Origin: a virus | Reading direction: 5' to 3' (one strand) | IMG/VR virus record: IMGVR_UViG_3300020172_005639 | Coordinates: 56,523-120,522 of that record | Length of the DNA stretch: 64,000 bases | In this document: positions 9,914-28,769 of the stretch, piece by piece | Layout: the number at the start of each line of letters is the position of its first letter | Numbering within the stretch: position 1 is the stretch's first letter | The notes under the pieces: generated by a model | Told to the model about the DNA's origin: nothing | The model's input: the letters and a program-made list of their open reading frames with translations, nothing else | Database searches by the model: none | Made by a program: the position numbers and the translations under genes

Positions 9914-11055
9914 TCTCCGTACCTGATTTCCTGAAAAGGGCCGCAGACAGGAACGGCTTCGTGCGGGAGCGCTTCTCCGATGCAAACGCGCCGACTGACT
10001 TCACAAGCATCTGCATCATGCCTTTCTTCGGGGACTCCAGAGGCAGCGCCATACTATCAAGTCTACTTCTCAACAGGTACAGGTCGGAGGTCAGAGGTTC
10101 CAAGTATTTCATTCTGGCCTCTTGGCCTGGGATGCAGGGGCTTTTCCCCTACGTCGACGAATACTGGGCTTTCAATGATCAGGCAGTCATCAAGCGCTTC
10201 TACGAGGGGGCGGATGAGCTCCGAAACACCTCCGACCTAACCCCCACCTTCTTGAGAAACCTAAATGAGTTCTTCAGGGAGGTCATTGACGCCAAGGATC
10301 TCCAGAAGTATTACAGGAACGGGCTGACTAATGCGTTCTTCGAGAGGTTTACCGACACAAAGAGGTTCCTTCCATTCATCCCCAGCCTCTCGATACTGGG
10401 CAAGGAGTTCAACCGTGACTTCATGACGAAGTCTGGCTACAAGGTCTTCATCCACCCATCGATATTCTGCAAGTTCTGGCAGTACGGGACGAGCAATAAC
10501 CTGAGGACGAAGAGGGAGTTCTGGGTTGAACTCTGCAAGCACCTGCACTCCGAGGGAATGACGCCAGTGGTCTGGCAGAATTTCAACGCTTGGGACATCG
10601 CTGAGGATGTGAAAGAGTATGCAGTCGTTTATCGCGACAACGACATGATTAGGGCGCTCTGCTTAATGAGGTCGTGCTCAGTCGTTTTGGACTGCTTCAA
10701 CGGCCTCGGTAGATTTGGGCTTATCGCTCGCACTCCGATTCTGGCGTTGGACGAGGGCTCCAGGTATACCTACACCAGAGAGCGGGAGATAGACGATTTG
10801 CTCGGAGGCAAGAGCACTCCTCGACAATATATTTTCACTTTTTGCACTATTTTAACAGACGGCAGCCCTGAGTTCTGGAAGAGCGACATCTTCAGGAACA
10901 TATCGGGAAAGCTGGATTACATGTTGCCAGCCATAGACAGGGATTTGTTGGCTTCAACTTCAGAGTCACAGGAGTTAGTGCCATACGCTGACGCCGTGCA
11001 CCTTAAGAAGCGAAAACGGCTCGGCACAAGGTTCATCAAGATCGAACACGATTGA
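9910..11055 (+). CDS. GT-B-like glycosyltransferase-related protein
   Basis: 381 aa. I chose the GTG at 9910, which overlaps the upstream stop (GTGA) and has GGAGGG just before it; an in-frame GTG at 9898 is the alternative. The fold plan matches the previous protein: a first half with SICIMPFFGDSRGSAILSS and a second half with FWVELCKHLHSEGMTPVVW and a CSVVLDCFNGLGRFGLIARTPI segment where donor sites lie in heptosyltransferase-like enzymes. No DxD motif is expected for GT-B. Function is inferred from plan and pairing only. Confidence 0.6.
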   Translation: MISVPDFLKRAADRNGFVRERFSDANAPTDFTSICIMPFFGDSRGSAILSSLLLNRYRSEVRGSKYFILASWPGMQGLFPYVDEYWAFNDQAVIKRFYEGADELRNTSDLTPTFLRNLNEFFREVIDAKDLQKYYRNGLTNAFFERFTDTKRFLPFIPSLSILGKEFNRDFMTKSGYKVFIHPSIFCKFWQYGTSNNLRTKREFWVELCKHLHSEGMTPVVWQNFNAWDIAEDVKEYAVVYRDNDMIRALCLMRSCSVVLDCFNGLGRFGLIARTPILALDEGSRYTYTREREIDDLLGGKSTPRQYIFTFCTILTDGSPEFWKSDIFRNISGKLDYMLPAIDRDLLASTSESQELVPYADAVHLKKRKRLGTRFIKIEHD

Positions 11056-11064
11056 GGATTTAAA

Positions 11065-11340
11065 ATGGCATGCAGAGTTGAGGTGAGGGATCTCCCTTCC
11101 AATCCCACATGGTACGAGCGTGAGATTGCTTTCAAGAAAATGTTCGCAGCCTTTAACAAAAAGGTCGCCGAAGCAGGCATCAGGCAGGCGCTGAAGGAGC
11201 GGGAGTATTACGAGAGCCCCGGACAATCAAGGAGGCGCAAGCGGCGCGAGTCCGAGAACCAGCGACTGAAAGAAAAGCTGCGCGAGAACTTCCCCCAGAA
11301 GAGGAAGCCCAAGAAGAACGACAAGAAGAAGGACAAGTAG
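11065..11340 (+). CDS. rpsU: Ribosomal protein bS21 homologue
   Basis: 91 aa. The core matches bS21: a short N-terminal strand (CRVEVRDL), helix 1 (AFKKMFAAFNKKVAEAGI), then KEREYYESPGQSRRRKRRE and a basic tail. bS21 sits on the 30S subunit near the anti-Shine-Dalgarno end of 16S rRNA and is known in several phages. A phage copy could replace the host protein and shift mRNA choice. The extra Lys-rich tail (KKNDKKKDK) makes it longer than most cellular versions (about 70 aa). It is followed closely by a DNA-binding protein and peptide deformylase. Confidence 0.85.
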   Translation: MACRVEVRDLPSNPTWYEREIAFKKMFAAFNKKVAEAGIRQALKEREYYESPGQSRRRKRRESENQRLKEKLRENFPQKRKPKKNDKKKDK

Positions 11341-11341
11341 G

Positions 11342-11605
11342 ATGAGCAAGAAGGGGACAATCATGAGCCTGCACGTCGACCCCGAGACGCAGGAGAAGAT
11401 GAAGGCCCACGCAAAGAAGCGGAACGTTAGTGTTTCCAAGTTCATTCGCGACCTCGTCGATAAAACCTTGGCCGACCCGAGCGAGGACGTGGATACAGTA
11501 ATCTTTCGCGTGCCCAACTCTGCCAAGAGGGATGTGCACACGCTCACTTCTTGGTTCCAACAGCGCATAGACGCCGTCGTGAGGGCCGTTGTAGGTGAAC
11601 ATTAA
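11342..11605 (+). CDS. Ribbon-helix-helix DNA-binding protein
   Basis: 87 aa, starting 1 nt after the bS21 stop. Residues about 7-40 (GTIMSLHVDPETQEKMKAHA followed by KKRNVSVSKFIRDLV) match the strand-helix-helix of MetJ/Arc or CopG-type regulators. Such proteins dimerise and bind short palindromes. Its 3' end overlaps the deformylase start by 11 nt. It may regulate phage or host promoters; palindromes at 12934 and 56963 are possible but untested targets. Confidence 0.8.
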   Translation: MSKKGTIMSLHVDPETQEKMKAHAKKRNVSVSKFIRDLVDKTLADPSEDVDTVIFRVPNSAKRDVHTLTSWFQQRIDAVVRAVVGEH

Positions 11606-12107
11606 GTCGGTTGAACTTGAGCTGGTCGCAGAGAGCGCAATACCGGACGCCCAGCCGGCCTCCGGCATCAGCCTAGCAGCACTTTTCGTTGCTGCCCTGA
11701 AAATGGAGCACCTCTGCACCAAGGAGTCAGGCATAGGGTTGAGTGCAGTTCAGGTCGGCATGCCCTGGGAAATATTCGTGGTGCGTCGAGGTTGCGGCAC
11801 GTCATCTGAACATTATGAGTATTACGTGGATTGCAGGTACTTCAGCCAGAGTCATGAAACAATCAAGTCCATAGAGGGATGCCTTTCGCTCAAAAGGGAC
11901 GGCAAGCCCCGAAGGTTTGAGGTTGAGAGGTACAAGCAAGTCAGCATCATAGGTAAAAGGCTGCTGATGGGTCCTGAAGGCTTACCGATATTGGAGGATG
12001 TGGATTTCAAGGAGGAGGGCCTGTACGGCATCGTCTTCCAGCACGAAATTGACCACAGCATGGGAATCCTCATCTCACAGATAGGCACAGAGTTAGAGGT
12101 CGCTTGA
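11595..12107 (+). CDS. def: Peptide deformylase
   Basis: 170 aa, GTG start. All three motifs are present: GIGLSAVQ (residues 46-53), EGCLS (94-98) and HEIDH (150-154), giving the Cys and two His metal ligands and the catalytic Glu. It removes the formyl group from the N-terminal methionine of new proteins. Phage deformylases are known from marine phages. It overlaps the ribbon-helix-helix gene and shares an operon with bS21, pointing to early control of translation and protein maturation. A 20-residue N-terminal extension precedes the usual first helix. Confidence 0.93.
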   Translation: MNIKSVELELVAESAIPDAQPASGISLAALFVAALKMEHLCTKESGIGLSAVQVGMPWEIFVVRRGCGTSSEHYEYYVDCRYFSQSHETIKSIEGCLSLKRDGKPRRFEVERYKQVSIIGKRLLMGPEGLPILEDVDFKEEGLYGIVFQHEIDHSMGILISQIGTELEVA

Positions 12108-21806: not shown

Positions 21807-22538
21807 ATGGCGACACCAGCTTACAATCCGCTCGAAGGCGAGCGACCAGAGATGACCGTTAAGCTTCACGAGAACTCCGACGATTATATTTCAATCATCA
21901 TCGTCCACAGGGACAGGCCAGAGTACCTAAATATATGCTTACAGTCTATAGCAGTAACATCATTCAACAACAACTATGAGATTATCGTAGTCGATAACGG
22001 CAGCGGAAAGGAGTCGCAGGACTTCCTCAAGGACATTGAGGGCGAAGTGAAGGTTGTCAGGAACGAAAAGAACCTGTACTGGTCGTCGGCCTGCAACAAA
22101 GGCGTGCAGGCGGCAGACAAGAACAGCAAGTACTTCATCTTCATGCACTGCGACGTGGTCGTGCTCAACCCAGCCTGGATCGACCTGCTCGTCAACGTTT
22201 CGGAGGCGCAGCAATCCGGTTATGTCGGCATCGATACGCAGTCATACATGATGGGCTCGCAGAAAGTGGAGTTCATGCAGGAATACGTCATCCTCGTGAC
22301 GAGGGAGGCATGGAAAGACATCGGGCCTTGGCCTGAGCAGCTGCCGCAGGTGGGCCACGCATTCATCATGACGATGAGGGCCCAGAACAAGGGCCACAAA
22401 CCCCAGATCATGAAGAACCAGATTGTTCACCACTACCGCATCTTCAGCCTCGATATCTCCGACTACGAGAGAATGACGGAGCAGGCGATGACAACCCTTC
22501 CCAAGTTGATGACAGAGGTGCAGACGCGCGCTTTATGA
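21807..22538 (+). CDS. Family 2 glycosyltransferase (GT-A)
   Basis: 243 aa. Nucleotide-sugar fold: YISIIIVHRDRPEYL (about 27-41), YEIIVVDNGSG (about 57-67), NLYWSSACNKGV, and the metal site HCDVVV (about 112-117) in place of DxD. This family adds a sugar from a nucleotide donor. Its stop overlaps the oxygenase start by 4 nt, so the sugar transfer and an oxidation may act on one product. Confidence 0.88.
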   Translation: MATPAYNPLEGERPEMTVKLHENSDDYISIIIVHRDRPEYLNICLQSIAVTSFNNNYEIIVVDNGSGKESQDFLKDIEGEVKVVRNEKNLYWSSACNKGVQAADKNSKYFIFMHCDVVVLNPAWIDLLVNVSEAQQSGYVGIDTQSYMMGSQKVEFMQEYVILVTREAWKDIGPWPEQLPQVGHAFIMTMRAQNKGHKPQIMKNQIVHHYRIFSLDISDYERMTEQAMTTLPKLMTEVQTRAL

Positions 22539-23239
22539 GATGCACGTTAAAAACCGATGAGGTTGCGGTTTTCGACGATCTGTTCGAACCTGACAGGTTC
22601 AAGCACTTCGTCCAGTACTTCAACACACTTGACTTTCGTTTCAGGCACAGCGATGGCTGGCTGAAGGTGTGGAAGTTGACCGACGGGAACATACTTTCGG
22701 GGAAGGAGCTGCAAGCCTCTCGCGCCCCGTTTAACAACCAGATGGACTGGGTGCACTACATGGTTAGCGCCTTGTCCCAGTCGCATGCCAAGGAAATCTG
22801 TGGCGAGTTCGGCAAGGACTATCATGAGATTATTTATACCCCATACGTCTACCCGATAGGCACTCGCATATCTTGGCACGACGACCATGGCTACTCTGCC
22901 GCCTGCATTTTCTACTGCCACCCATCATGGCACCCAGAGTGGGGAGGCGAGCTCCAGATTGCCAAGACAGACAGTTTTACGGAGGCGGTGGACGACCCAA
23001 TAGATGACCAGATACAGCGAAAATACATTCCCAGGCTCCTGAACAAGCATGGTTTTGGAACCTACATATCGCCGTTGCCCAACCGCATGGTGTTTACCAA
23101 GGGCAGCGTTTGGCATGCAATAAATCGCGTGGACAAAATCGCTGGCGACTCCGCAAGGCACTCCGTCGTCGCCTTCTTCCGAAAGCGCGACGAGCCAAAG
23201 CCTATCGCTTCAGCTTCTCAATCTTGTCAAGGAACTTGA
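22535..23239 (+). CDS. 2-oxoglutarate/Fe(II)-dependent oxygenase
   Basis: 234 aa with the double-stranded beta-helix triad: HDD (H115, D117), distal His in VWHAINR (H194), and Arg in ARHSVV (about 205) for 2-oxoglutarate. It is prolyl-hydroxylase-like in layout. The acceptor could be a virion protein, a glycan or a nucleotide. Coupled to the upstream glycosyltransferase. The last 38 nt overlap the minus-strand peptidase gene tail to tail. Confidence 0.85.
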   Translation: MRCTLKTDEVAVFDDLFEPDRFKHFVQYFNTLDFRFRHSDGWLKVWKLTDGNILSGKELQASRAPFNNQMDWVHYMVSALSQSHAKEICGEFGKDYHEIIYTPYVYPIGTRISWHDDHGYSAACIFYCHPSWHPEWGGELQIAKTDSFTEAVDDPIDDQIQRKYIPRLLNKHGFGTYISPLPNRMVFTKGSVWHAINRVDKIAGDSARHSVVAFFRKRDEPKPIASASQSCQGT

Positions 23240-23678
23240 ACCAGTCCTCATTGTGCCAAACGACTGGCGCGTGGTTGCTGTATTTGGCCGCATAGCTCAT
23301 GCAGAATATTTCCTCGTCATTCTGACGCAAAGCCTTCTTCTGCTCTTCTTTGTCAAACTTGTCGATCTGGGCCTGCTTAGTCCTTTTCAGGATTTTCGAC
23401 CACTCTTTCTTGAGCTCGTTTGTGACTAGGTACTCCCAGACTAGGTGAGCGATCTCGTGCAGAGTCGTGAACATACGACTGTAGTTCCAAGGCGCAGCGA
23501 CGACGATCCTGTCTTTGTAGATGTAGCCTATGTGCTGGTTGTCGCCGTTGAGGGTGTTGCCGGGCGTGTACTTGAACTTGTAGCCGTCAAGAAGGTCACG
23601 GTGTCCTTTGGGGAGACTGTCTAGCAGCTTCCCCACGTTACGCTTCTCTTCGAATTCAAGAAATTGTTTGAAACTCAT
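23202..23678 (-). CDS. Zinc metallopeptidase with HEIAH motif
   Basis: 158 aa. The ATG at 23678 has a GGGGGAG site and begins MSFKQFLEFEEKR, one of the amphipathic leaders recurring here. HExxH is HEIAH (74-78) and a third ligand candidate is Glu 122/123 in DEEIFCMSY, a gluzincin-like plan. Possible roles are maturation of virion proteins or host protein cleavage. A CCTAAATA late-type element lies upstream on the minus strand. Confidence 0.8.
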   Translation of the reverse strand: MSFKQFLEFEEKRNVGKLLDSLPKGHRDLLDGYKFKYTPGNTLNGDNQHIGYIYKDRIVVAAPWNYSRMFTTLHEIAHLVWEYLVTNELKKEWSKILKRTKQAQIDKFDKEEQKKALRQNDEEIFCMSYAAKYSNHAPVVWHNEDWFKFLDKIEKLKR

Positions 23679-23694
23679 TTTCTCCCCCACTTTA

Positions 23695-23702
23695 TTTAGG
23701 AC
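23695..23702 (-). promoter_or_regulatory. Minus-strand late-type element CCTAAATA
   Basis: The minus strand reads CCTAAATAAAG before the GGGGGAG site of the peptidase gene. It pairs with a plus-strand TTAAATA at 23747 in the same divergent space. Confidence 0.4.
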
Positions 23703-23745
23703 CGAAGCTCTTTTTCAGATGTGCATCCGGAAAAAAAATGGTGGG

Positions 23746-23753
23746 CTTAAATA
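23746..23753 (+). promoter_or_regulatory. Late-type element CTTAAATA, 4 nt before ATG
   Basis: Six of eight positions match TATAAATA. The element ends 4 nt before the phoH ATG. There is a weak AGG but no full ribosome site, so a near-leaderless mRNA is possible. Confidence 0.4.
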
Positions 23754-23757
23754 AGGT

Positions 23758-24498
23758 ATGTCCAAGCAAAAACAAAAGCCGAAAACCTCGAGACCCAAGC
23801 CAGGCCAGCCCAAGCCGGCAAGCGAGACGCCGCAACACAAGAGGGCCTTCCATCTTGAGTTTATCACTCCTGCGCAAAAGATGGCTTGGGCAAGCTTCGA
23901 TCAGCACGATGTGATTTTCCTTCTGGGAGCTCCTGGCGTGGGCAAGTCCCATTTGGCTTGCGCCTTCGCAATCAGCGAGGTGCTGTCCAAGCGCAAGAAG
24001 AAGATCGTTCTCACGAGACCCATAGTCGAGGCTGGCGGCGAGTCCATCGGATATCTGCCCGGTACATTCGAGGAGAAGGTCAACCCATACATGCTGCCAC
24101 TATACGACTGCATGGACAGGATGCTTGGTCCCGTCGGCCCGCAGCGCGATATAATCAACAAGAGCGTTGAGCTTGCTCCCATCTGCTTCATGCGAGGCCG
24201 CACATTCAACGATGCAGTCTGCATCTTTGACGAGGCGCAGAATGCCACTTTTTCGCAGATTAAGTTATTCTTGACCCGCTTCGGAAAGAACAGCAAGGTC
24301 ATCATCACCGGCGACCCGATGCAGAGCGATCTCAAGCCTGCCGATCGCGCTCTCATGAAGGTCGTCGACAAACTTTCTACCGTAAACGGGATTGGAGTGA
24401 TCACCTTCAAGGCTAACTCTATCGTGCGCCACCCCTTGATTGCTTCAATACTTAACAAACTTGAGGATAAGGAGGAAAATGGCTCTAGTAGTTCCTAA
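23758..24498 (+). CDS. phoH: PhoH-like ATPase
   Basis: 246 aa. Walker A GAPGVGKS (57-64), Walker B CIFDEAQN (D158, E159), the PhoH signature VLTRPIVEAGGESIGYLPG (about 84-103) and TGDPMQSDL. PhoH ATPases are common in large phages; proposed roles are in RNA handling or phosphate stress. A Lys/Pro/Gln-rich N-terminal tail (about 30 aa) precedes the fold. The 3' end overlaps the next gene by 20 nt. Confidence 0.93.
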   Translation: MSKQKQKPKTSRPKPGQPKPASETPQHKRAFHLEFITPAQKMAWASFDQHDVIFLLGAPGVGKSHLACAFAISEVLSKRKKKIVLTRPIVEAGGESIGYLPGTFEEKVNPYMLPLYDCMDRMLGPVGPQRDIINKSVELAPICFMRGRTFNDAVCIFDEAQNATFSQIKLFLTRFGKNSKVIITGDPMQSDLKPADRALMKVVDKLSTVNGIGVITFKANSIVRHPLIASILNKLEDKEENGSSSS

Positions 24499-24889
24499 CG
24501 GTGGTGAAACCGTTCTTCTCGACAGGCTCTTGAAGCTGACGAACGTCACCGACAACTATCTGCTTCACCTCTATAAAAACAACTACACTCCGCTGTCCAC
24601 TTCGGTGAAGTCGGACTTCACGGAGGCCGACTTCACCAACTATGCAGCGACGACGCTGACACGCTCCACTTGGGCGTCCTCTACCTTGAACGGCAGCAAC
24701 AAGGCACAGAGCACCTACGCAGCCCAGAGCTGGACTTGCGGTGTGACGACCAATACTGTGTACGGCTACTACATGACAGACAGCACGGACACAACTTTAT
24801 TGTGGGCTGAGCAGTTTGGCATAGCCAGGACGCTTGCCGAGAATGATATTCTGAGCGTCACGCCTGTTTTCACGTTAAGTAGCGAGTGA
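24479..24889 (+). CDS. Probable virion structural protein
   Basis: 136 aa with GGAGG ribosome site inside the phoH 3' end. Ser/Thr-rich beta protein (LLHLYKNNYTPLSTSVKSD, TTNTVYGYYMTDSTDTTLL), of a type often found as small head or tail decoration proteins in large phages. No enzyme motif. It precedes the 601-aa structural protein, supporting a virion role. Confidence 0.7.
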   Translation: MALVVPNGGETVLLDRLLKLTNVTDNYLLHLYKNNYTPLSTSVKSDFTEADFTNYAATTLTRSTWASSTLNGSNKAQSTYAAQSWTCGVTTNTVYGYYMTDSTDTTLLWAEQFGIARTLAENDILSVTPVFTLSSE

Positions 24890-24928
24890 TTTGCAGTGCG
24901 ATTTGGCTACACATCCAGTAGATAGTGC

Positions 24929-26734
24929 ATGCCTTATAACGAGACTATGTCCGGCGGCGTTTTGGTGGGCGGGAACTGCTCGGACACCATGGTCATGGAG
25001 AACGTTGCCTCGGGCGGCGCTTCGGCAGGCGGATCCTCATCCAACAACCTCTCAATGTACAACCTTGCCTCTGGAGGCGTTTCCGCCGGGGGCTCAGCTG
25101 TAATAAGCATTGGTTTCAGTGCGTCAGGCGGCGCAACGCTTTCCGGATCAGCATTGGTAGGGATTGGCGTCGCTGCCTCGGGTGGCGTGGCTTGTGGCGG
25201 CCAAGCTAATTACACGATAGTCTTTGATCAGGCGTATGTATTCAATGTAAATGCCTATCTTACGGCTGATCAGGCTTATACCTTCAACATAGGCCGATCT
25301 CCTCTGAGGTACTATCGCGTTCAGGGGTGCTGCGTCTATCCGACTGCTGCCGGCAGCGGCTTGCCGGAGCAGCCCTTCCCCGGTGGGTGCGATGTGGTTG
25401 GCATAGAGACAGATGACGACCAGTGCACGGGCGCTTTGGGCAAGAACCAGTATACTCAAAACATAATCGCAAGGGATATCCAAGAGGTATGCGAAAAGCT
25501 CTCAAGGAGCAAGCTTCGCTGGCAGATATGCAGCCTCAAGCGATGGAGCAGGCTTGCCGACCCGAGGCTCCGGCCTGAGGACGATGAGTGCAATGTCCTT
25601 GAAGAAGTCCCTTTCGCCGATATCCCCGCCTGTCTTGAGTTCACTCTTGCCATAGACAGCCTGACAAAAATCAAAGCCATCGTTGAGGTGACCCAGGACT
25701 TCCACGATTACGATGGCTCTGGCACCATCACTATGGGCGGTGAAGCCCCTGCTGCGATTACGGCTGGTGGCACCACTCCTACCGTCTGGAACTATTCCTT
25801 CGTGAGTTCTGGTGGCCTTATAGTCATGGGCGGAACGGGAGCTACTTCATCGTTTGAGAGCGACTACCTCATCACAACAATCGTTACCGTGAGCCTGCCT
25901 CTGGAGGAGCCTGTTTTTGCGACAACCGATGCGCTGCCTGAAATACAGTCAAACAACGATGCAATAGTCACCAGTTGCGCAACTTGCAACGCGTTGCCCA
26001 TAAACCTATTCCTGACCCATAACCTTACGGTGCCGGGTCTTTTCTACAACTTCCTTCAACGAAACAACCTAAAGATTCCGCAGGCTATACAGATGAGTTA
26101 CAGCCCCACCCAGGTTGCTTGGATTGCCACGATCCAGTACAAGGGCATCACCGAGTCAAACAGCACGCTGGACAACTGGAGGCTGGTATTTGAGTTCGCA
26201 TGCACAGACTATATTTCCGGCGAATACACCGGCAATCCAGTCATCAAGTTCTCAATGACCGTCAACAAGAAAAACCTCACGACGAACAAGTCGGCAGAAA
26301 CCAAGTTCATGATGACGCTTCCTCCTGTCGGTTTTTGCGCGTCTGTCAACAACTTCAGAAATACCTTCAACTGGCTTTTCAACTTCCCCACCCAGTATGT
26401 CCGCAACAGCGCAAACCTCACCGTGCAGTCGTTGATCTACTACGACAACATAGGAATGTTCTCATCCAAGCAGTGGATGATGTACCCCAACCTATCCTTC
26501 ACCATCTTAAGGGATCCCGTGCAGTCAGGAAGCAGCTTCTACGACCTGTCGCCAATTGTTCCGCAGCCAACTCCTGTACTGGGTAGGAATATTGAGAGTA
26601 TACTTGGTTTGCCGCCATCGCCGTATATCGTCGATCGACCCAAGCGCATCTACGTTCAGCCTCCGATCGTGCCAACGGAATCCGCTGTCCCCGGCATTAG
26701 GCAGACTGGCACACAAGTTCTCACGGAGACTTGA
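24929..26734 (+). CDS. Large structural protein with Gly-rich N-terminal repeats
   Basis: 601 aa. Residues 7-95 hold five imperfect repeats of about 18-20 aa with a SGGxxxGG core (MSGGVLVGG, ASGGASAGG, ASGGVSAGG, ASGGATLSG, ASGGVACGG). The rest is beta-rich with two further Gly-rich hairpins near 265-305 and a C-terminal Asn/Ser/Thr-rich domain. Low Lys content, no enzyme motif and the upstream decoration-like gene suggest a tail, fibre or capsid-surface protein. The ribosome site is weak. Confidence 0.75.
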   Translation: MPYNETMSGGVLVGGNCSDTMVMENVASGGASAGGSSSNNLSMYNLASGGVSAGGSAVISIGFSASGGATLSGSALVGIGVAASGGVACGGQANYTIVFDQAYVFNVNAYLTADQAYTFNIGRSPLRYYRVQGCCVYPTAAGSGLPEQPFPGGCDVVGIETDDDQCTGALGKNQYTQNIIARDIQEVCEKLSRSKLRWQICSLKRWSRLADPRLRPEDDECNVLEEVPFADIPACLEFTLAIDSLTKIKAIVEVTQDFHDYDGSGTITMGGEAPAAITAGGTTPTVWNYSFVSSGGLIVMGGTGATSSFESDYLITTIVTVSLPLEEPVFATTDALPEIQSNNDAIVTSCATCNALPINLFLTHNLTVPGLFYNFLQRNNLKIPQAIQMSYSPTQVAWIATIQYKGITESNSTLDNWRLVFEFACTDYISGEYTGNPVIKFSMTVNKKNLTTNKSAETKFMMTLPPVGFCASVNNFRNTFNWLFNFPTQYVRNSANLTVQSLIYYDNIGMFSSKQWMMYPNLSFTILRDPVQSGSSFYDLSPIVPQPTPVLGRNIESILGLPPSPYIVDRPKRIYVQPPIVPTESAVPGIRQTGTQVLTET

Positions 26735-26736
26735 TC

Positions 26737-27039
26737 ATGGAATTATGGTTACTCTGGGCAGTATTGGCATTTTGTATCTCAAATTTTGTCCTCCTCTTTT
26801 TTCTGGGGCTTTTCGTGGTAAGATCACACGAGCAGTCGAGAGGCATGATTGGGGGACTCGCAGAGATGATTGCTGGCGCCCCCGAGATCGAGCCCGAAGT
26901 CCCAGGTCAAAAAACTTGGGACCAGAAGTACGAGGAGGAACTTGAGGCATTTTCACGGAGGATTCGTGGAACCTCCGGTTTAGCCGACCTTCCCTCTGCC
27001 ATGCCTTACAACTCACAAGTTCCCAAAGACCCTGCATGA
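26737..27039 (+). CDS. Small membrane protein
   Basis: 100 aa; ATG at 26737 follows the upstream stop by 2 nt. One long N-terminal hydrophobic helix (LWLLWAVLAFCISNFVLLFF LGLF, about 3-28), then a soluble charged tail. Not recognised. Could be an inner-membrane accessory or holin-like protein, but nothing decides. Confidence 0.7.
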   Translation: MELWLLWAVLAFCISNFVLLFFLGLFVVRSHEQSRGMIGGLAEMIAGAPEIEPEVPGQKTWDQKYEEELEAFSRRIRGTSGLADLPSAMPYNSQVPKDPA

Positions 27040-27055
27040 GGCATGAAGTCTCTCC

Positions 27056-28048
27056 ATGGTGTATCGCAAAACATATCGCAAGTTTCACATTCAGCGCAGA
27101 TTCGGAGTTGAGCTTGAGCTTGGATCTGACATTTCCAAAAGAAGAATAGCGAATGTAATCAAAAGTTGCAGCGACAGAGCCGTAAAGGTTGCAAAATATA
27201 GCCAGACGTCTGGCAATGATTTCTGGCACGTAAAGGAGGACGCCACTTGCGGCCCCAGTGGCAGAAACGGTCCTAGGGGAGTTGAGGTTGCGTCCTTTAT
27301 CGGCTCTGGTTCCACCGATATTTCACACCTCTCTGACGTCGTTGACAAACTCGCCTGCTTTGGCTGCTCGGTCAATAACAACTGTGGCCTCCATGTTCAT
27401 GTGGACGTGGCTGACCTTCATATTGAGCAACTGGGCTGGATATGCGCGTGGTGGATCAAGTGCGAGCTGCCCTTGAGCATGGCGCTGCCGCTGCGACGAC
27501 TGGGAAACACATACTGCAAGTTTATCTTTCCACCCTTTCTCGAGACTGTCGTAAAGAACGGCGTGCTGCTTGACAGGTCCATGCCTTTGAGTCCTCATTT
27601 CTCCGGCCCCACTTTATTCACCGTCCTCACTCAAAGGCTAAGGCCGCCGACTACGGAAGAAAGACGATGCAATCTCAACCTGACTAACATAGTCAATTCA
27701 AGCGCGCTGATGCAGGGCAAGACCACCCTTGAGCTACGCTGGCCTGAAGGTTCCATAAAGTCCCTCGATGTTCGTTCTTGGACAAAGCTTTTTCTCCTGT
27801 TCGTGGACTCGTGCAAAAACAAGGGTATGCCTCAGGACCTTAGTCCGTGTGGCATAGCCCAGATGATGGAGTGTCTTGGTTTGCATGATGATATGCACTC
27901 ACTTGTGCTAAGTCCTTCCCTTAGTGAGTGCAAACGCTGGCTGCTGGACCGCATAACGAAGCATCTTCCGGAAACCAAAAAGCTTTACTCAAAGTCCCTA
28001 GTAAGCCAGTATTTGAGGGAGGCTAGCAACTTGAGTACTGCTGAATAG
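27056..28048 (+). CDS. Amidoligase-like enzyme (COOH-NH2 ligase fold)
   Basis: 330 aa. Resembles the Amidoligase_2 family: RRFGVELELGSD (about 14-25, with the ExE pair), WHVKEDATCGP, GVEVAS (about 74-80) and CGLHVHVDVAD (about 110-120). These enzymes form amide or peptide bonds using ATP and are found in phages and bacteria in cell-wall or peptide-tag pathways, often beside gamma-glutamyl cyclotransferase-like proteins. One such protein lies at 59511. Substrate unknown. Confidence 0.75.
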   Translation: MVYRKTYRKFHIQRRFGVELELGSDISKRRIANVIKSCSDRAVKVAKYSQTSGNDFWHVKEDATCGPSGRNGPRGVEVASFIGSGSTDISHLSDVVDKLACFGCSVNNNCGLHVHVDVADLHIEQLGWICAWWIKCELPLSMALPLRRLGNTYCKFIFPPFLETVVKNGVLLDRSMPLSPHFSGPTLFTVLTQRLRPPTTEERRCNLNLTNIVNSSALMQGKTTLELRWPEGSIKSLDVRSWTKLFLLFVDSCKNKGMPQDLSPCGIAQMMECLGLHDDMHSLVLSPSLSECKRWLLDRITKHLPETKKLYSKSLVSQYLREASNLSTAE

Positions 28049-28156
28049 CTTTTTGATTGGCTTGAGATTGGTCATTTGGCTTTATTTCTAGGTTTTTTCA
28101 TATTCGCAACAGGCTATCAAGAATAGATTTTGGAATAGCTTTTTGAATAGCTTTTG
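28043..28156. repeat. 12-bp tandem repeats GAATAGCTTTTG (three) plus one distant copy
   Basis: GAATAG-n6 units begin at 28121, 28133 and 28145, exactly 12 bp apart, and one further GAATAGCTTTTTGATTG copy starts at 28043, overlapping the amidoligase stop. They lie in an AT-rich non-coding stretch and look like iterons or binding sites. Confidence 0.7.
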
Positions 28157-28160
28157 ATTG

Positions 28161-28168
28161 CATAAATA
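28161..28168 (+). promoter_or_regulatory. Late-type element CATAAATA
   Basis: A 7/8 match to TATAAATA, directly after the 12-bp repeats and about 95 nt upstream of the sigma-factor gene. Confidence 0.45.
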
Positions 28169-28179
28169 ATTTGTCGGGG

Positions 28180-28208
28180 TTGACCCATATCTCCCTCGGC
28201 ATTACACT
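28180..28208 (+). promoter_or_regulatory. Sigma-70-type promoter for the sigma-factor gene
   Basis: TTGACC (28180-28185), a 17-nt spacer, then TACACT (28203-28208). This is a good match to the housekeeping promoter and would start transcription near 28215, inside the ACACTT array. Confidence 0.5.
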
Positions 28209-28274
28209 ACAACTTAACACTTGTAAACACTTTATTTACACTTTCTTTACACTGAGACACTGATGAACACTTTT
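28204..28274. repeat. Helically phased ACACT(T) box array
   Basis: Seven ACACT boxes begin at 28204, 28217, 28227, 28238, 28249, 28257 and 28267, spacing mostly 10-11 bp. The array starts at the -10 box and runs over the sigma-factor start codon. Such phasing places all boxes on one face of the helix. Confidence 0.7.
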
Positions 28275-28769
28275 GAAAAACTTATTGAAGATCACATACC
28301 CGTAGCCAAGACCATCGCAAGAAGCCACAAGAGCAAGTACCATCAAATCTCGATTGACGAGCTTGAGGCTGCCGCACTTTATGGCCTCGTCCATGCCGCA
28401 AACAAGTTCGATGAAATTCGTGGCATACCCTTCATTAGGTTTGCGAGCAAGCGCATGTATGGTGCGATTATTGACTACGTAAACGAGCTTCTGGTAGGTC
28501 CGAAGGGTGACAAAAAACTTGCCGAACAACTGCCGGAGGAAATCAAGACAGAGTCTGAGCAGAATTCTCACATCCATTTTGAGGAGTTGATATGTTTTCT
28601 GCCCAAACGCACGCAGTTTATCATGCGAAGGGTTTATGTCTTTGAGGATTCGCTGGCCGACATATCAAGCGTGTTGAACATCGGTGAATCGAGGATAAGC
28701 CAAATAGTTGCAAAAGCTCGAAAGACCATAGAGGATCGTATCGGGAAATTATATGGCTCCGTGGCCTAA
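28263..28769 (+). CDS. Sigma-70-family RNA polymerase sigma factor
   Basis: 168 aa. Region 2 is visible (KLIEDHIPVAKTIARSHKSK, ISIDELEAAALYGLVHAANK, PFIRFASKRMYGAIIDYVNE) and region 4 at the end (LPKRTQFIMRRVYVFEDSLA, SSVLNIGESRISQIVAKARK). Regions 1.1 and most of 3 are missing, as in flagellar or phage sigma factors. It may direct host polymerase to the TAAATA-type late promoters, like T4 gp55, but this is inference. It is expressed from a region packed with repeats. Confidence 0.88.
   Translation: MNTFEKLIEDHIPVAKTIARSHKSKYHQISIDELEAAALYGLVHAANKFDEIRGIPFIRFASKRMYGAIIDYVNELLVGPKGDKKLAEQLPEEIKTESEQNSHIHFEELICFLPKRTQFIMRRVYVFEDSLADISSVLNIGESRISQIVAKARKTIEDRIGKLYGSVA

Follow-up and report, generated by a model that had tools for sequence, protein, structure and literature searches.

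Two unlinked genes, one encoding a FliA-like sigma factor and the other a T4-gp32-like single-stranded DNA-binding protein (SSB), share a degenerate array of ACT repeats that runs across their start codons in a number of related phages. Sequence comparison gives good support to this element being common to both genes, anchored on the start codon and specific to the mRNA strand. As an evenly balanced judgement, we propose that the array is a translational operator in the mRNAs of the sigma and SSB genes, probably bound by the SSB, such that the level of single-stranded DNA (ssDNA) would gate the production of the sigma factor. The analysis started from a window of 64,000 nucleotides, corresponding to positions 56523-120522 of a 120,522-base IMG/VR virus record (Table 1), and was extended to relatives, among them 70 loci obtained from a PhoH search.

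Table 1. Features at the sigma-gene locus (positions within the window)
Feature	Position	Strand	Basis or remark
Amidoligase gene (PF12224), upstream neighbour	27056..28048	+	Pfam E 6e-17; synteny in relatives
First GAATAG copy	28043..28070	+	Overlaps amidoligase stop codon
Intergenic control region, amidoligase/sigma	28049..28262		214 nt; ORF table and sequence
Three 12-bp GAATAG units	28121..28156	+	Lineage-specific, not in relatives
Predicted 8-bp hairpin	28172..28201	+	Immediately 5' of ACT array, overlaps proposed -35
Sigma70-type promoter TTGACC-N17-TACACT	28180..28208	+	9/12 consensus matches
ACT/ACACT array, proposed mRNA translational operator	28204..28282	+	Spans sigma start codon
Phage sigma-factor gene, FliA-like (sigma-28 group), with regions 2 and 4	28263..28769	+	

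The array before the sigma gene

The initial annotation of this DNA described a 214-bp gap in front of the sigma gene with a CATAAATA element, a TTGACC-N17-TACACT promoter and seven ACACT boxes at 8-13 bp steps over the start codon. All of these are present where it placed them. The CATAAATA element lies at 28161, and the ACACT boxes start at 28204, 28217, 28227, 28238, 28249, 28257 and 28267 (steps of 13, 10, 11, 11, 8 and 10). A scan of both strands of the window revealed no second ACACT cluster of such kind, and the maximum reached in 2000 dinucleotide shuffles of the region was five boxes, compared to the seven observed. Two details had escaped the annotation. One is the core unit of the array, ACT, which occurs in nine copies (28206, 28212, 28219, 28229, 28240, 28251, 28259, 28269 and 28280); the last two fall inside the sigma coding region, the ninth lying 11 nt deeper than the eighth. 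The other is the 8-bp hairpin. This hairpin overlaps the proposed -35 element. The sigma transcript would contain it only with a transcription start 5' of the hairpin, and the whole 141-nt stretch around it has a z-score of only -1.17. Sites of the TTGACC-N17-TACACT type are common by chance here (3 found versus 1.5 expected), and the window promoter matches the position of the TTGAAT-N17-TATAAT and TATATAAT boxes found in relatives.

A good part of the loci conserve the order of the genes for PhoH, a 601-aa protein, a small 102-aa protein, the amidoligase, the sigma factor and proteins of 296, 121 and 83 aa. In about 20 diverged phages, a degenerate ACT array precedes the syntenic sigma gene, and the ACACT array of the window is, on this comparison, its local form. 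The relatives' sigma proteins are approximately 32% identical to that of the window (about 28-37%), yet the ACT-rich leader sits right before their start codons, often 3' of a TATATAAT box (e.g. TATATAATTTAACTGTTTAACTTTCACCTAACTTTCAAGGACTTTTATG in L070). An alignment search added more distant sigma genes with the leader (L079, L083, L096, L098 and L100); within the same set it is scarcely present in L101 and L102, and lacking in the least related genes, L103-L105. Across 24 loci, a density of at least five ACT per 60 nt is reached by 13 of 306 intergenic start regions, and all 13 are sigma leaders. Since dinucleotide shuffling preserves AC and CT, these gaps show a weak ACT excess over their shuffled versions (85 versus 74), and we therefore took the leaders of other genes as controls.

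Several loci show variants of this arrangement. In L009, an additional coding sequence (10808-11835) lies between the amidoligase and sigma genes, and the ACT leader has been kept with the sigma gene. In L012 (13821), L013 (14112) and G013, the sigma ORF is truncated after region 2 or has an in-frame stop, which may reflect gene decay, an error in sequencing or the use of an alternative code, and the ACT leader is retained. Searches of annotated phages gave no DNA or sigma match, the amidoligase search of IMG/VR gave no match, and neither did Rfam at the gathering threshold.

The GAATAG repeats lie upstream of the sigma promoter. They had been reported as three copies in exact tandem (28121, 28133 and 28145) with a fourth at 28043. 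The positions and the exact 12-bp spacing are correct, whereas the tandem units are 87% alike and not identical. None of 2000 dinucleotide shuffles contained at least three GAATAG copies and two contained two. An imperfect 28-nt direct repeat carries these GAATAG units (28043-28070 versus 28133-28160, 86% identical, 90 nt apart). Conservation in relatives, which the annotation had suggested as a check, is found for the ACT array and not for GAATAG, which is missing from the relatives' sigma gaps. GAATAG was dropped as a functional array for this lack of conservation; the repeats look like a local duplication.

The same element at an SSB gene

The second gene with an ACT array in the phage of the window encodes a T4-gp32-like ssDNA-binding protein (PF08804, E 2e-13; L073:2616, which is G000:C1:22616-23611). 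Among the 141 start regions of the phage's own 120-kb contig, only those of sigma (9) and gp32 (5) contain at least five ACT. In seven phage genomes scanned piecewise, a cluster of ACT ahead of a start codon mostly marked two genes in each genome: the sigma gene and one other. The mean number of ACT per 60-nt leader is 5.40 for sigma (n=15) and 3.80 for gp32 (n=5 in the set), compared to 0.82 for other genes (n=1176 intergenic leaders); in the first 42 coding nt, the corresponding means are 1.73, 1.80 and 0.47. A wider collection of 82 gp32 loci provided 44 distinct leaders, of which 42 have two or more ACT in their last 60 nt, 37 have three or more and 24 have four or more. Gene starts were assigned by simple rules, and many of the records are fragments. 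The sharing of one element by the sigma and SSB genes suggests that a single control sets the level of both.

The position of the array is defined by the start codon. When 20 sigma and 26 gp32 genes are binned, ACT density rises at -60, peaks from -40 to 0, stays high until +40 and then drops to background. AGT, the reverse complement, is depleted across -60 to +40; that is, the array is confined to the mRNA strand. The distance between the gp32 promoter and the AUG varies from 59 to 104 nt, and the ACTs hold their position relative to the AUG. Leaders of both genes are also less paired from -45 to +10, with unpaired scores of 0.62 for sigma (p 6e-9) and 0.54 for gp32 (p 4e-4) versus 0.48 for controls. 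The anchoring on the AUG, the strand bias and the low pairing all favour the mRNA at the start codon over duplex DNA at a promoter.

Spacing and structure add further detail. In sigma leaders the commonest ACT spacing is 10-11 nt (15 pairs versus an expectation of 9.4, p 0.03), whereas gp32 leaders favour 11-12 nt (10+11: 21 versus 11.2 expected, p 0.003). The preference becomes moderate to weak once similar sequences are removed. Many gp32 leaders have a hairpin before the repeats, and in L107 an H-type pseudoknot is possible (stem GACAGCACTT/AAGTGCTGTC, with the loop GACACCA pairing to TGGTGTC). Most sigma leaders have no clear hairpin or pseudoknot; hairpins are found in L083, L098 and the window.

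Individual phages illustrate how the array varies. The gp32 leader of L110 and L135 (G012:C1:15445-15500) is a clean 11-nt tandem of GTGTAACTTTT with about six AACT units. The near relative L251 has fewer GTGTAACTTTT copies than L110, a difference that points to a recent gain or loss of units in the putative operator. In G007, FliA-type promoters with ACT-rich leaders behind them also precede the genes for a PARP-WGR protein (L160:2514-4136) and a phrog_2475 protein (L162:6513-7697), possible extra regulon members in this one phage.

Sigma and gp32 genes differ in promoter type and agree in leader. Sigma70-like boxes precede the sigma genes of several relatives and of the window. By comparison, 17 of 21 gp32 leaders are preceded by TAAA(G)...CGATA, whose two elements are consistently separated by 21-22 nt, and TAAAG..CGATA with such spacing is the FliA (sigma-28) promoter. 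The solved structures nearest to the window sigma are FliA and WhiG, and with its regions 2 and 4 this sigma falls within the FliA/sigma-28 group. It resembles FliA/sigma-28 factors in its nearest structures, and the gp32 promoters resemble theirs in motif and spacing; it differs in its short length of 168 aa and in being controlled by a phage. The phage sigma likely transcribes gp32 from the TAAAG..GCCGATAA promoters. Another sigma-like protein, more distant and about 300 aa long, is also encoded by many of the phages (G005, G006, G009, G011, G012 and others).

A putative SSB operator and competing readings

In the mechanism we propose, the ACACT array makes up the 5' leader of the sigma mRNA together with its start region; this stretch would be unstructured and carry ACU units at intervals of ~10-11 nt between about -60 and +20. 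Free SSB would line up along the ACU repeats of its own mRNA and of the sigma mRNA, masking the ribosome-binding site and the AUG. Replication would then expose ssDNA, which would titrate the SSB away and allow both mRNAs to be translated. Finally, the FliA-like sigma would drive the TAAAG..CGATA promoters, including that of the SSB gene, and so close the loop. We infer the SSB as ligand, its repression of translation and the coupling to replication.

The closest known system is the proven gene 32 operator of T4 and RB69, where gp32 represses its own translation: a 5' pseudoknot nucleates binding, further monomers occupy an unstructured leader that carries UUAAA repeats and spans the ribosome-binding site, and ssDNA competes for the protein (PMC535899, PMC3014915). 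The resemblance lies in a gp32-family SSB gene with an unstructured, short-repeat leader over the ribosome-binding site, in the upstream hairpin of many gp32 leaders and in the possible pseudoknot of one. In particular, an unstructured repeated motif covers the ribosome-binding site and start codon here as well; the motif is ACU, not UUAAA/UAAA. The differences are that ACU recurs about every 11 nt rather than UUAAA every 5 nt, and that the repeats run into the coding region and, most importantly, also mark the sigma gene. Since the ACU repeat differs from the T4 motif, we describe the element as one that would work like the T4 operator and do not file it as a member of that class. The PF08804 genes of the family carry the element in their own leader, and the sigma gene would be an additional target. 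No gp32-type repeats were found in the leader of T4 gene 55. As cited in PMC535899, M13 gp5 is a phage SSB that represses translation of the gene 2 mRNA; it is alike in acting on another gene's mRNA and differs in its target, which in the present phages would be a sigma factor.

Other ligands can be weighed against the SSB. The cleanest of the gp32 arrays, with six 11-nt AACT units, comes from G012, a phage that lacks the syntenic sigma gene. This sigma is therefore not required as the ligand, and the sigma itself as the array-binding protein is disfavoured. Since the gp32 leader bears the element, autogenous gp32 is a simpler ligand than some other RNA-binding protein. A RegA-like or new phage protein reading the ACU repeats in both mRNAs is very unlikely in our estimate. 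Any start-site RNA operator on two genes would fit such a protein, and T4 RegA acts on about 30 mRNAs as a start-site translational repressor (PMC3014915). On the other hand, a search of 12 of these phages (run without a positive control) gave no member of the RegA family, and the element in the gp32 leader itself favours autogenous control.

The initial annotation took the array over the start codon to be a site through which a DNA-binding protein could shut off the sigma gene. Its regulatory appearance and its conservation in relatives stand, and what has lost favour is the duplex-DNA repressor relative to an mRNA operator. In a duplex-DNA operator, a phage protein would bind the direct repeats cooperatively, once per helical turn, and block or activate transcription of sigma and gp32. 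The location of the arrays just 3' of promoters and the spacing of 10-11 (sigma) and 11-12 (gp32) suit helical phasing. However, the phasing is weak after redundancy removal, the array follows the AUG instead of the promoter, it enters the coding region on the mRNA strand only, and it is common to genes with sigma70-like and sigma28-like promoters. We consider this reading unlikely, and a gp32-like SSB on mRNA appears a better candidate binder than the ribbon-helix-helix or ParB-like proteins on duplex DNA that the annotation had named. It is quite unlikely that the array simply enhances translation, with an open leader attracting ribosomes (S1 or UUAACUUUA-type enhancer) for early, strong synthesis of sigma and SSB and no phage ligand involved. 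The leaders are indeed unusually unpaired, and several contain TTAACTTT, which resembles the T7 gene 10 leader enhancer. Yet just two genes of the phage's own contig reach the threshold, so the array is no general property of leaders, and the repeats extend to +40 within the coding region. Least probable by far is the iteron array or replication origin that the annotation had also raised. The region is AT-rich and repeated, and cumulative GC skew has a local minimum near 28 kb in the window; this skew step is absent in 14 relatives, and an origin is therefore not supported. Moreover, GAATAG is not conserved, the relatives' gap can be as short as 39 nt (L013), and the array is strand-specific on the start codons of two unlinked genes. 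As a separate observation, GC skew is negative over the ~6 kb before the sigma gene (22001-28000) in a contig that is otherwise mostly positive, a feature not common to relatives.

Some observations weigh against the SSB operator as well. The repeat is unlike that of T4, the scarcity of clear hairpins or pseudoknots in sigma leaders is a further departure, and the 10-11 spacing would also fit a helically phased DNA operator. G013 has a sigma array and no detected gp32, and G007 has further genes with arrays. Sigma and gp32 leaders are no more alike in same-phage than in between-phage pairs (p=0.33), and co-evolution with one ligand therefore lacks support.

A possible link between replication and the timing of transcription

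Late transcription in T4 is coupled to replication via gp45, gp33 and gp55, at the level of transcription through the sliding clamp. The element described here is similar in that sigma activity would be tied to replication, and different in that the coupling would occur at translation of the sigma mRNA. More tentatively, and at somewhat under an even chance, we suggest that throughout a clade of large, mostly uncultivated phages the SSB translationally represses the sigma factor; the quantity of replicating ssDNA would then directly time a sigma-28-type programme. If true, this would be a replication-to-transcription checkpoint in which mRNA takes the place of a sliding clamp.

How far gp32-type translational control reaches beyond the close relatives of T4 is an open question (PMC3014915). 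These distant phages supply dozens of natural gp32 operator sequences (putative, and with copy-number change) together with a candidate second target, the sigma gene. If the SSB is the ligand, the element would provide a simple link from DNA replication to a gene-expression switch.
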